Source: Cyanobium sp. NIES-981
GTDB taxonomy: Bacteria; Cyanobacteriota; Cyanobacteriia; PCC-6307; Cyanobiaceae
Direction of reading: 5' to 3'
DNA length: 64,000 nt
Assembly (NCBI GenBank): GCA_945901765.1
Contig: CAMDLO010000002.1
Span: 1 to 64,000 of the forward strand
This document shows, one piece after another, positions 37,075 through 42,664 of this stretch; positions within the stretch are counted from its first letter, which is position 1; every line of letters begins with the position of its first letter. The notes under the pieces are model-generated. The model did no database searches, had not been told where the DNA came from, and saw nothing but the letters and a program-made list of their open reading frames with translations. Position numbers and translations under genes: made by a program.

Positions 37075-38433
37075 TCAGAAGAACTCGAGGTACCGCTTCT
37101 GTTCCCAGTCGGAAACGGAGGAGTGGTATGACTCCCACTCCTGCCTCTTGTACGTCACATAGGCCTCAAACATGGCATCACCGAATACGGATCTGGAGAG
37201 AGGATCTGCGGCGAAGGCATCTGTCGCTTCCTCCAGATTGCGGGGCAGCATGGTGAGCCCTCGTTCCTGCCGTTGTTGGGGTGTGAGGGTGTAAGCATTC
37301 ACCAGGTTCGGAGGGCCGGGATCCAGCCCTTCGCGGATGCCCTCGAGGCCTGCAGCCAGAATCATGGCGGCTCCGAGATAGGGATTGCAGGAGATGTCTG
37401 CAGCCCGGCATTCCACCCGACCTCCAGGTGAAGGGACTCTCAGCATGTTGGTACGATTGTTGTTGCCGTAGCAGATGAAGACAGGGGCCCAGGTGAAGCC
37501 CGACATGCTGCCCTGGGCCACCAGCCGCTTGTAGCTGTTCACCGTGGGGGCGATCACGGCGCAGATGGCTGGCGCATGACGCAGCACCCCGGCGATGAAG
37601 CTGTGCGCCAGCTCGCTCACCTGGCCGGGTGCCCGATCGGCCGTTTCAAAGAGATTGATGCCGCTCTGCAGCTCGGCCAGCGACATGTTGAAGTGGGCGC
37701 CACTGCCGGTGCGGTCGGCATAGGGCTTGGGCATGAAGGTGGCGATCAACCCATGGTGGTGGGCGATCTCCTTGGCCATCAGCTTGAAGAAGGTGAGCCG
37801 ATCCGCCATGGTGAGCACCTCCGCGTAATCGAAGTCGATCTCAAACTGCCCCGGGCCATCTTCGTGATCGAAGGAATAGACTCCCCAGCCGAGCTGGTTC
37901 ATCGCGCTCACCAGCTCATCGAGCCAGGGGAGGTTGTCGAGCAGGGTGCGGACGTCGTAGGCCGGTTTGTCGAGGCAGTCGCGCGGGCTCAGGGGCACGG
38001 GGCGGCCCTGGTCATCCCGGCGCAGCACGAAGAATTCGGTTTCGATGCCAAGGTTGAAGCGATAGCCCATGGCGGCGGCCTGGGCCTGCACCCGCTGAAG
38101 GATGTGACGGCTGCAGGCCTCAAAGGGAGTGCCGTGCAGATGGAGCGTGCTGGCCATCCACACCAGCTCGCGCTGCCACGGCAGCACGGTGGCTGATGCC
38201 GGGTCGGGTACGGCGGCCACTTCGTCGTCGCTCACGTCCTGGGGCACGCCATCGAGGGCGGCACCGGTGAACAGCTCCGAGCCGGCAAGCATCTGACCAA
38301 GGTGGCTGAGGGGCACGGCCTTGGCTTTGCATACCCCGTGCAGATCGACGTAGCTCGCCAGGGCATAGCGCACCCCCTGACTTTCAAGGCTGCGGCGCAG
38401 TTCGTCAGCGGCTGGGGAGGTGGGGCCGCTCAT
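37075..38433 (-). CDS. glutamine-synthetase-fold ligase (GlnT/PuuA-like), paralogue 1, in the guanidine operon
   Basis: [109 protein letters not shown]. Confidence 0.88.
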
Positions 38434-39158
38434 GCCGTCACCAGGGTGGGGGACGTGGCGCGAGCGAACGGGCCACACACGGCTGCCTGCTGATCGCGTA
38501 CCCAGCCATGCCAGGCCGCCAGCCCTTCACCGCTGCTCGCCGAGACGCGGATCACGGCACAGCGCGGATTCACGGCGCGGATGTGGGCCTCGATCCGCGC
38601 GATGTCGACCGGCAGGTAGGGCAGCAGGTCGGTCTTGGTGATCAGCACGCAGTGGGCCTCGCGGAACATCACCGGGTACTTGAGGGGCTTGTCGTCGCCC
38701 TCGGTGACGCTGAGCAGGGCCACCTTGCGGTGCTCGCCCACCTCGAATTCGGCGGGGCACACCAGGTTGCCCACGTTCTCCACCCAGAGCAGGTCGAGGC
38801 TGGCGGGATCGAGCCGCTGCTTGAGCAGCTTCAGGCCGCCGCTCACCATCGCCGCATCGAGGTGGCAGGCGCGGCCGGTGGTGATTGGCACCACCGGCAC
38901 GCCCACGGCCTCGAGCCGCTCGGCATCGAGCTGGGTGGTCATGTCGCCCTCCAGTACCGCCATCTGCAGGTCGGTGGCGAGGGCAGCCAGGCTGCGCTCG
39001 AGCAGGGAGGTCTTGCCGGCGCCTGGGCTGCTCATCACGTTGAGGCAGAGCAGCTGCCAGGCATCGAAGTGCTCGCGGTTGTGTTCGGCCTGGTGCTGGT
39101 TGGCGGCCAGCAGGTTGAGGCCAAGGGTGTCTTCCAGGGGCATGTGCATGGCCGTCAC
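38430..39158 (-). CDS. hypB: HypB-like nickel-insertion GTPase
   Basis: [23 protein letters not shown]-loop, [80 protein letters not shown]. Confidence 0.92.
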
Positions 39159-39574
39159 ACCGCAGCGGCGGTGGCGAGGGGGGCTTGGGGGGCGGTTGTC
39201 GCGCTGGGGCTGGCTGGTTCCGGCAAGCGGTAATCGACGGAGCGGATGCGCAGTTCACGGCCGCTCACGATCTCCTCCATCGGCTGGTTGCAACAGGGGG
39301 AGCGGTAGGCCTGCTGGGGATCGGGGCTGTAGGTGCCGTTGCACAACACACAGCGCCCCACCAGCGGCACGGTTTCGATCGCCAGCTCGGCGCCGTCGAG
39401 CCAGCTGCCGCGCACGGCCGCCCGCCAGGTGGTGACCAGCTGGTCGGGCTCCACACAGGTGAAGGTGCCCACCTGCAGATGCACCGTCTGAACCTGCGGC
39501 GTGACGGGGTCGTGCTGCTGCCTCCACTCCTGCATGGAGAGCACCAGGCATTTGGTCATGTCGACTTCATGCAT
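39155..39574 (-). CDS. hypA: HypA-like nickel chaperone
   Basis: [15 protein letters not shown]-terminus (MHE Ni motif); zinc site [41 protein letters not shown]. Confidence 0.9.
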
Positions 39575-39578
39575 GGCG

Positions 39579-40769
39579 CTATCTCCACGTCTGGTCGACG
39601 TTCATGTTGCAGACGTCGCTGATCCAGCTCGGCTTTTGCTTCCGCGGCAACTGACCGCTCACCACCAGGTGGGCCATGGTGTCGCAGATCACCCGGCAGG
39701 CCATCAGGGAGGTCATGTCGCTGATGTCGTAAGGGGGCGACACCTCCACCAGCTCCAGGCCGCACACCGGTACGTTGCGCACGATCAGCTCCAGCAGCTT
39801 GAGGGCCTCGCGCGGCAGCAGGCCGCCGGGCTCGGGCCAGCCGGTGCCGGGCACGAAACCGGCATCGATGCAGTCAATGTCGAAGGAGATGTAGACGCAG
39901 TCGGTGCCATCGGTGGCCCGCTCGATCGCGAACTGGGCAGCGGCCTCCAGCCCCATCTCACAGATGTCGGTGACAGTGAGCACGTTGGTGCCCCGCTCCC
40001 GGCACACCTTCACGCCTTCGCGGGGCACCTGCCAGCCGCCGATGCCCAGCTGCACCAGGTTCTTGGCCGGCGCATTGGCCATGTTCGTGGCGTGGAACCA
40101 CGGACAGGTGTGCATGCGCTCGTCGAGGTCGATCTCCTGGGTGTCGACGTGACGATCGAAGTGGATGATGCCCACTTTCTTGTCGCCCAGGTGGCGGCAG
40201 ACGCCGCGCACGGTGGGGAAGCCGATCGAGTGGTCGCCGCCGAGGATGATCGGGAAGGCGCCGCTGGCGAACACGTGGGCGACGCCCTTGGAGATCTGAT
40301 CGAAGCTCTTCTCGTTGTTGGCCGGAATCGTGAAGATGTCGCCGACGTCGCAGAGCTTGATCTGCTCGCGCAGATCCACCCCCATTTCGTAGTTGTAGGG
40401 GGTGTAAAGCGCCGAAATCCGGCGGATACCCTGGGGCCCGAATCGGGTGCCGGGCCGGTAGGTGGTGCCACTGTCGTGGGGCACACCCACGATTGCCACA
40501 TCAAATTCACCGACACGGTTCACGTCCTCGATGTAGGGCGCCTTCATGAAGGTGTTGATGCCCGCGTAGTGGGGCAGTTCACCGCGGGAGAAGGTGGAGA
40601 TGCGCCGGTCGACGATGCTCTCGGCCGCTTCCAGGCCGTAGCGGTGGGCCTGGTCGACCTCCTGTTGCCAGCCGGTGAGGGGAAGGGCTCGCTCCTTTTC
40701 GAGGGCCTGCATCCCCTCGCTCGGGTGCAGACGTTCGAAGGCGCCAGAGGCACCTGAGGGGGTCTTCAT
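39579..40769 (-). CDS. gdmH: guanidine hydrolase (Ni-dependent ureohydrolase-family), GdmH-like
   Basis: Ureohydrolase motifs GGDHSIGFPTV, IIHFDRHVDTQEIDLDERMHTCPWFHATNM, YISFDIDCIDAGFVPGTGWPEPGGLLPRE; coupled to hypA/hypB and preceded by a guanidine-I riboswitch. Confidence 0.88.
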   Translation of the reverse strand: MKTPSGASGAFERLHPSEGMQALEKERALPLTGWQQEVDQAHRYGLEAAESIVDRRISTFSRGELPHYAGINTFMKAPYIEDVNRVGEFDVAIVGVPHDSGTTYRPGTRFGPQGIRRISALYTPYNYEMGVDLREQIKLCDVGDIFTIPANNEKSFDQISKGVAHVFASGAFPIILGGDHSIGFPTVRGVCRHLGDKKVGIIHFDRHVDTQEIDLDERMHTCPWFHATNMANAPAKNLVQLGIGGWQVPREGVKVCRERGTNVLTVTDICEMGLEAAAQFAIERATDGTDCVYISFDIDCIDAGFVPGTGWPEPGGLLPREALKLLELIVRNVPVCGLELVEVSPPYDISDMTSLMACRVICDTMAHLVVSGQLPRKQKPSWISDVCNMNVDQTWR

Positions 40770-40796: not shown

Positions 40797-40895
40797 CGGT
40801 CTCCCGGGCTTTTATCCCTCCGTGCCCCGGCCTGCGCCGGTGGAGCTCTCTTGGACCAGACACCCAGTGATGGGCCGGAACCCTAGAACTCCTGT
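40797..40895 (-). promoter_or_regulatory. guanidine-I riboswitch (ykkC class), boundaries approximate
   Basis: Minus strand reads CTAGGGTTCCGGcccatcactgggtgTCTGGTCCAAGAGagctccaccggcgcaggccggggcACGGAGGGATAAAAGCCCGGGAG, i.e. the conserved CUAGGGUUCCG / CUGGUCC-AGAG / ACGGAGGGAUAAAAGCCCGGGAG blocks in order. Confidence 0.92.
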
Positions 40896-40960
40896 TCCGC
40901 AGTGAAAGTGTGAAGGACCTGAGCGTCGCTGATGGTGGCGGTCGTTACCGCAGCGGCGAT

Positions 40961-40994
40961 CGGGCGGTCGATTGATCCGGGCGGTCGATTGATC
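40961..40994. repeat. perfect 17-bp tandem duplication
   Basis: cgggcggtcgattgatc x 2; second copy reaches into the stop codon of the His-rich ORF. Confidence 0.95.
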
Positions 40995-41163
40995 AGTCGT
41001 GGTGGTGGTGCTCGTGCTCGCCCTGCTGGGTTGGCTGGTGGTGGTCAGGGTGGGCGAGGGCGGCGGTGGGGTTGGCTGCGGACAACCAGGCCAGCGCCAG
41101 CAGCAGCGCTGCGACCAACCGGCCATCAGGACGCCGCGATGAGAGGGGAAGACGGGGATTCAT
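40993..41163 (-). CDS. small secreted His-rich protein (56 aa)
   Basis: MNPRLPLSSRRPDGRLVAALLLALAWLSAANPTAALAHPDHHQPTQQGEHEHHHHD: signal peptide (ALA-H) and His-rich tail. Confidence 0.7.
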   Translation of the reverse strand: MNPRLPLSSRRPDGRLVAALLLALAWLSAANPTAALAHPDHHQPTQQGEHEHHHHD

Positions 41164-41269
41164 GGAGAGAGCCGTGCGGCAGTGCGAGTAAAGGCCAATG
41201 GCCTGGGGCGGACCGTAAGGAGCCGGCTGCGCTTGTCCAGTAGCCATGGCAACAATTTGCCAGGCCGGG

Positions 41270-42664
41270 CTAGACCATCGATTCGGGTTGCACCCACTGC
41301 TCGAACTCCTCGGCGCTGAGCTCACCGAGCACCAGGGCTGCCTCCTTGAGGCTGAGCTGGTGCTGATGGGCATGTTTGGCAATGGTGCAGGCCCGGTCGT
41401 AGCCGATCGCCGGGGTGAGGGCGGTGACCAGCATCAGGCTCTGGTCGAGCAGGGCGCTGATGCGGTTTTCATCGGCGGCGAGGCCCTCGATGCAGTGCTG
41501 GCGGAAGCTGCTGCAGCTGCCTGCCAGCAGCTCGATGCTCTCCAGCAGGTTGTGGGCGATCAGCGGCTTGAACACGTTGAGCTCGAAATTGCCCTGGCTG
41601 GCGGCGATCTGCACGGCCGTGTTGTTGCCCATCACCTGCACGGCCACCATCGTCAGGCTCTCGCACTGGGTGGGGTTCACCTTGCCGGGCATGATCGAGC
41701 TGCCCGGTTCGTTTTCCGGCAGGATCAGCTCGCCCAGGCCGCAGCGGGGGCCGCTGGCCAGCCAGCGGATGTCGTTGGCGATCTTCATCAGGCTGCCCGC
41801 CAGCACGGTGAGGGCGCCGTGGGCGGCGGCCAGGGGCTCGTGGCCCGCCAGGGCCTGGAACGTGTTGGGGGCTGAGGTGAAGGGCAGGCCGAGGCGCTCG
41901 GCCAGCCGGGCCGCCACCGCTTTGCCGAAGCCGGCCGGCGCATTGAGGCCCGTGCCCACCGCTGTGCCGCCGATGGCCAGCTGGAGCACCTGGGGCAGGC
42001 TGGCGCGCAGAGTCTCCAGCCCCAGCTCCAGCTGGGCGGCGTAGCCACTGAATTCCTGGCCCAGGCTGAGGGGGACGGCGTCCTGCAGGTGGGTGCGGCC
42101 GATCTTGATGATCGCCTTGAAGGCCTCGGCCTTGGCAGCCAGGGCCTGGCGCAGCGCCTCCACCGCCGGGATCAGCCGCTGCTGCAACTCGAGGGCCACG
42201 GCGATGTGCAGGGCGGCCGGGAAGGTGTCGTTGCTCGACTGGCTGAGGTTCACATGGTCGTTGGGGTGCACCGGGCTCTTGCTGCCCAGCACGCCGCCCG
42301 AGGCCGCGATCGCCCGGTTGGCGATCACCTCGTTCACGTTCATGTTGGTCTGGGTGCCGGAGCCGGTCTGCCAGACCTTGAGCGGGAACTCCCCGTCGAG
42401 GCGGCCTTCGGCCACCTCCTCGGCCGCCGCCACGATCAGGGCGGCCAGCTCGGGGCTGAGCCTGCCCCTGGCCTGGTTCACCTCGGCGCAGGCGGCCTTG
42501 AGGGCGCCGAAGGCATGCACCACCGCCAGGGGCATTCTCTGGCCAAAGGGGAAGAAATGCAGGGAGCGCTGGGTCTGGGCTCCCCAGAAGTGCTCGGCGG
42601 GCACGGTGATCGTGCCCATCGCGTCGCTCTCCTGGCGCGTTGTCGCCATGGGGTGTTCGCTCAC
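41270..42664 (-). CDS. fumC: fumarate hydratase class II
   Basis: [61 protein letters not shown]. Confidence 0.95.

Follow-up and report, generated by a model that had tools for sequence, protein, structure and literature searches.

The 64,000-nucleotide stretch of Cyanobium sp. NIES-981 DNA analysed here (the window) carries, immediately upstream of a guanidine riboswitch and the guanidine hydrolase gene gdmH, a small, unannotated open reading frame (sORF) that by the sequence evidence is a genuine small gene and no chance frame. Its conserved reading frame, the signal-peptide-like N-terminus of its product, its tight link to gdmH and two NtcA-type promoters, one ahead of the sORF and one ahead of gdmH, are consistent with a model in which an NtcA-induced, exported metal-binding peptide helps to provide GdmH and urease with Ni(II). 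We regard this model as about an even proposition, in which the response to NtcA, export, metal binding, specificity for nickel and benefit to both enzymes are the inferred parts.

The sORF runs on the minus strand from an ATG at 41163 to a stop at 40993 (40993..41163, stop codon included), encodes the 56-residue protein MNPRLPLSSRRPDGRLVAALLLALAWLSAANPTAALAHPDHHQPTQQGEHEHHHHD and has relatives in nine further genomes. A basic N-terminus leads into a hydrophobic core, an A-L-A motif and then HPDHHQPTQQGEHEHHHHD, so that the positive n-region, hydrophobic core and A-x-A type site expected of a Sec-exported protein are all present by inspection. Assignment of the n, h and c regions by eye together with the -3/-1 rule places the signal peptide at residues 1-37, ending in A-L-A (41053..41163, minus strand), which leaves HPDHHQPTQQGEHEHHHHD as the mature peptide (40996..41052, minus strand), with an HPDH start that is invariant in the alignment and a His-rich tail that is variable. 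The signal-peptide-like N-terminus thus predicts export of the peptide, and because nine of the 19 mature residues are His, the exported product very probably binds divalent metal; a His-rich chain of this length is expected to be disordered without it. The original prediction of a 56-residue His-rich frame with a signal peptide is borne out, with the mature part exactly as first given, and the sORF also lies where it was said to lie, on the same strand about 100 bp upstream of the riboswitch, with its stop 95 bp from the aptamer start. Two perfect copies of a 17-bp tandem repeat overlap the stop codon (40961..40994, no strand assigned); among the leaders of the members that were read, the repeat is peculiar to the window copy.

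The genes downstream of the sORF on the minus strand form a gene cluster, comprising gdmH itself, which encodes an arginase-family guanidine hydrolase of 396 aa (39579..40769; Pfam Arginase, E 1.9e-78), the nickel metallochaperone gene hypA (39155..39574; Pfam HypA, E 9.8e-25) and a hypB-like GTPase gene (38430..39158; Pfam cobW, covering CobW/HypB/UreG, E 7.2e-21). On the other side lies fumC (41270..42664, minus strand; Pfam Lyase_1 and FumaraseC_C), an upstream neighbour outside the system. In the parts of the published accounts available to us, a cluster of a guanidinase with nickel factors is described for Synechocystis and marine picocyanobacteria (PMC8390497, PMC10119275), the picocyanobacterial form (speB2/sll1077-hypA-hypB-ABC transporter) has the same neighbourhood of gdmH, hypA, hypB and riboswitch, and Sll1077 has the same riboswitch context as the window gdmH (PMC8390497). 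Those same parts make no mention of a His-rich peptide or of NtcA boxes, and the open-access literature on guanidine and NtcA, or on His-rich proteins and nickel in cyanobacteria, reported no such peptide.

Upstream regions of gdmH were gathered from 113 genomes within the bacterial family, and at ten of these loci, in four genera, a relative occupies the same place, so that the conservation in related genomes proposed at the outset is present; the members comprise four genomes of genus g1 (G000, G001, G006, G012), four of genus g10 (G157, G193, G219, G286) and single representatives of genera g47 (G058) and g34 (G196). Close relatives of the window genome, which is picocyanobacterium-like, include the metagenome-assembled genome Cyanobacteria bacterium M_surface_10_m2_119. 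In the alignment AHPDH is identical in all ten members and sits exactly at the predicted signal-peptidase site, followed in each by a His-rich tail that varies freely; across the family the end of the mature chain is rich in His, Asp and Glu. All ten relatives obey the -3/-1 rule, with A, V or S at -3 and A at -1, and inspection finds an export signal in every member with a readable N-terminus, several of which probably start at TTG. The five residues of the core do not change, while their codons differ at third positions (GCC/GCT/GCA, CAC/CAT, CCT/CCC/CCG/CCA, GAC/GAT and CAC/CAT), and pN/pS lies between 0.42 and 0.61 across six member pairs.

The link to gdmH extends to every convincing member of the family. 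A profile built from the ten gdmH-linked members, run against 400 genomes of the family without regard to position, returned exactly those ten genomes (E 8e-22 to 1.5e-12) and no other convincing member; the next matches, at 9e-4 or worse, proved on reading to be other frames or unrelated proteins. Gene content divides the 400 genomes into 126 with gdmH and 274 without a gdmH match, and the profile search found no sORF member in the latter. Conservation in genomes without gdmH had been named in the original prediction as an observation that would speak against it, and all ten members are in genomes that have the gene, an outcome with a chance of about 1 in 100,000 on the assumption, not fully valid, that the genomes are independent. 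Because the profile derives from gdmH-linked members only, diverged members elsewhere could be missed. Each of the ten strong members immediately precedes a Guanidine-I/gdmH unit, and it is this side that stays constant while the upstream neighbour differs between groups: in genus g1 the sORF sits between fumC and the riboswitch, and in G219 a gene that is thioredoxin-like by eye takes the place of fumC. Relatives that have no sORF carry another open frame (TenA-like by eye) or nothing in this slot; at three such loci (L005, L008 and L009, from G004, G010 and G003) a frame of about 220 aa, TenA/thiaminase-like by eye, lies between fumC and the riboswitch. Mapped on the gdmH tree, gain and loss of the sORF involve at least four changes by well-supported branches and six in the best tree. 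Presence at only ten of the 113 gdmH loci together with these changes suggests that the sORF is an accessory gene, lost or moved several times, and that GdmH works without the peptide.

Distribution beyond the family rests on a narrow DNA pattern, the 30 order-level genomes searched all belonging to the same family. This pattern, HPxHH(Q/H)PTQ, matched 53 loci in about 85,000 genomes; a signal peptide and tail accompany it only at L074, which is Cyanobacteria bacterium M_surface_10_m2_119 and corresponds to G006, and since the rest are other frames we rejected a wide distribution on this basis. Matches with three mismatches in G021, G102, G124, G132 and contig C35 of G000 were unrelated frames, and the viral contigs searched for the sORF gave no match.

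Upstream of the sORF we identified a promoter with the layout of an NtcA-activated gene. The arrangement GTN10AC-N22-TANNNT precedes the sORF with the same spacing at all ten loci; in the window it consists, on the minus strand, of an NtcA-type box GTTGCCATGGCTAC (41240..41253), in the same relative place at every locus, and 22 nt after it a -10 box read by motif as TACGGT (TAN3T; 41212..41217). The -10 box is TACGGT, TACGTT or TAGCTT at exactly N22 in all ten, and the strict motif arose in 0-0.4% of dinucleotide shuffles per locus for the nine sORF regions tested, the promoter of the tenth (G058) having been read from its own contig, outside the shuffle test. Transcription would start near 41205, with a leader of about 42 nt. 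The NtcA box is defined as GTAN8TAC, in practice GTN10AC, and in the canonical activated promoter the centre of the box lies about 41.5 nt ahead of the start and the -10 box is TAN3T (PMC3898017). The window box (GTT-N8-TAC) is one base off GTAN8TAC, and nitrogen genes of Synechococcus WH7803 are reported to have GTG, GTT, AAC and CAC box variants with N22 (PMC9430850), so that the layout of the sORF promoter, N22 spacing included, matches published NtcA promoters (PMC3898017, PMC9430850). With a TAN3T -10 box placed 20-24 nt after the NtcA box as the criterion, box and spacing are those of a class II promoter, and the sORF should respond to nitrogen limitation and not to guanidine.

All ten sORF loci have a further NtcA-type promoter, placed between the sORF and the aptamer. 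In the window the Guanidine-I aptamer occupies 40799..40897 on the minus strand (Rfam RF00442, 81.1 bits against a gathering score of 63, E 7.2e-13), preceded on that strand by an NtcA-type box GTAACGACCGCCAC (40935..40948), found at ten of ten sORF loci, and by a -10 box, CACACT on motif reading, 22 nt after it (40907..40912); gdmH transcription is predicted to start about 3 nt before the aptamer. Such a separate promoter would place the sORF outside the riboswitch leader and leave it not guanidine-gated. A member of the Guanidine-I regulon would be expected to follow the aptamer within one transcript, and the sORF precedes it. A place for the sORF in the riboswitch-controlled transcript is accordingly not supported, given an NtcA-type promoter of its own and a separate one predicted for gdmH, so that the earlier reading is supported in part. 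An NtcA-type box precedes the riboswitch at 84 of 96 riboswitch loci versus 1.3 expected from shuffles, which points to control of the operon by both nitrogen and guanidine with or without the sORF. From these sequences the picocyanobacterial guanidine operon seems to answer to nitrogen status as well as to guanidine, an arrangement that is not described for the guanidinase cluster in the available parts of PMC10119275 and PMC8390497. The riboswitch core string CTAGGGTTCC is missing within about 1 kb upstream of gdmH at L210-L222 (genus g18), L150, L151, L184 and L185, and at these loci, judged by string search, the aptamer may be absent or diverged.

These features suggest how the peptide could operate. 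Under nitrogen scarcity NtcA would activate the sORF promoter and thereby production of the peptide, independently of guanidine, and would also arm the separate gdmH promoter, whose transcript the guanidine riboswitch would then gate. Once exported to the periplasm or the cell surface, the peptide would bind divalent metal, most likely Ni(II), and hold or concentrate it for import; GdmH would be metallated through HypA and HypB, followed by urease, which would handle the urea released by GdmH. A bolder version, which we offer only tentatively, is that these exported peptides, with His-Pro-Asp-His as a metal site at the N-terminus, form an unrecognised NtcA-induced family acting as a dedicated extracytoplasmic nickel collector, readying cells for the use of guanidine and urea before the riboswitch opens. 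If so, nitrogen status would control the metal supply and guanidine would control the enzyme. For cyanobacteria, such a peptide, being conserved, closely tied to gdmH and preceded by an NtcA-type promoter, would offer a concrete and easily tested connection between nitrogen status and the delivery of nickel to nitrogen-scavenging enzymes.

Nickel is our best guess for the metal because hypA, hypB and gdmH adjoin the sORF and because the alpha subunit of urease, itself a nickel enzyme, is encoded in 14 of the 15 genomes tested, the one miss being a 68%-complete genome. GdmH is a nickel-dependent enzyme, and a counter-point to a role in nickel supply is that it is metallated in the cytoplasm, whereas the peptide is predicted to lie outside. 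Nickel superoxide dismutase was rejected as a client: it is absent from all ten sORF genomes and so is not the reason for the peptide. HupE/UreJ occurs in each of the 20 genomes tested, whether or not they have the sORF, which implies no partnership and led us to reject it as an obligate partner, and HupE-type permeases could be the route by which metal is imported.

Metal binding by His-rich peptides extends to Zn, Cu and Co, and the explanation that competes most directly with nickel supply makes the peptide an exported binder of one of these metals, or a general metal sponge, that belongs to the nitrogen-stress response and lies near gdmH as a fellow NtcA target. We consider this conceivable but rather doubtful. 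The sequence is without metal specificity, its tail varying freely, the sORF promoter is separate from that of gdmH, and HupE of some cyanobacteria has been assigned to cobalt (PMC4284471); against it stand the position of all ten members beside gdmH, with none found elsewhere in 400 genomes, a gdmH side that stays while upstream neighbours change, and the two adjoining nickel factors. Less likely still is a protective role, in which the peptide detoxifies excess nickel or another metal outside the membrane while nickel import is raised on guanidine or urea. His-rich sequestering peptides can serve as sinks, and the predicted export takes the peptide away from the compartment of the enzyme, but nitrogen control suits demand better than metal excess, and no efflux gene occurs among the neighbours examined with Pfam.

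In another reading the peptide itself does nothing, and translation of the sORF acts in cis as a leader, tuning read-through into the riboswitch and gdmH; the sORF shares the strand of the aptamer and ends 95 bp before it, and since no terminator-like site was found between the two, transcripts from the sORF promoter could run on into the riboswitch. We nevertheless judge such a leader very improbable, as the intervening promoter is present in all members, the distance from stop to aptamer varies among them, the core keeps its protein sequence through synonymous codon changes, and a leader needs neither a signal peptide nor a His tail. A chance frame is scarcely credible, for although this GC-rich region is rich in long open frames, chance would hardly yield ten relatives, an AHPDH that never changes where cleavage is predicted, E values down to 8e-22 in the profile search and consistently positioned promoters.

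Comparison with known proteins places the peptide within a broad kind, the exported His-rich metal-binding peptide, that is already known; what would be new, as far as our sources show, is this particular family, together with its association with gdmH and its control by nitrogen. Small His-rich proteins that store nickel and support nickel enzymes, as proposed here for the sORF peptide, are familiar from the Hpn and Hpn-like proteins of Helicobacter; the likeness is one of description, with no sequence relation claimed, and Hpn, unlike the sORF peptide, is cytoplasmic, larger and contains Cys. Database searches found no Pfam or NCBIfam family covering the sORF family. Proteins of the HHHH-motif family NF040554 (mini_HHHH) are likewise very short and, to judge from the match at residues 15-55, hydrophobic at the N-terminus and His-rich at the C-terminus; membership was rejected because the match (E 0.27, 11.5 bits) fell far below the curated cut-off of 40 bits, which was exceeded in none of 300 genomes of the family. 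HupE/UreJ proteins (PF04955), at the loci read, have a signal peptide ending in A-x-A and a mature chain starting with His, as the sORF protein does, and they too are exported and handle Ni or Co. HupE is a multi-helix permease, whereas the sORF product is a free peptide (about 20-35 aa) that lacks any membrane domain beyond its signal, and the shared His start is an intriguing parallel with no evidence of homology.

The DUF3721 proteins (PF12518) are, like the sORF product, short exported picocyanobacterial proteins, and one from G091 has the same AHP mature start and His-rich end, but the core G-C-x-G-x-H...WMPC of this domain is missing from the sORF, and neither the window protein nor its G058 relative matched above the Pfam gathering score. 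At L212 (G281) a 72-aa DUF3721-like protein with a lipobox-like Cys and a WMPCSMHKHNH end is encoded about 440-660 nt upstream of gdmH, putatively another small exported metal-binding candidate beside this gene. Within the gdmH cluster, a gene for a glutamine-synthetase-like protein (37075-38478 in the window; Gln-synt_C, E 1.2e-100, weak N-domain) sits between hypB and an NMT1-type binding protein.
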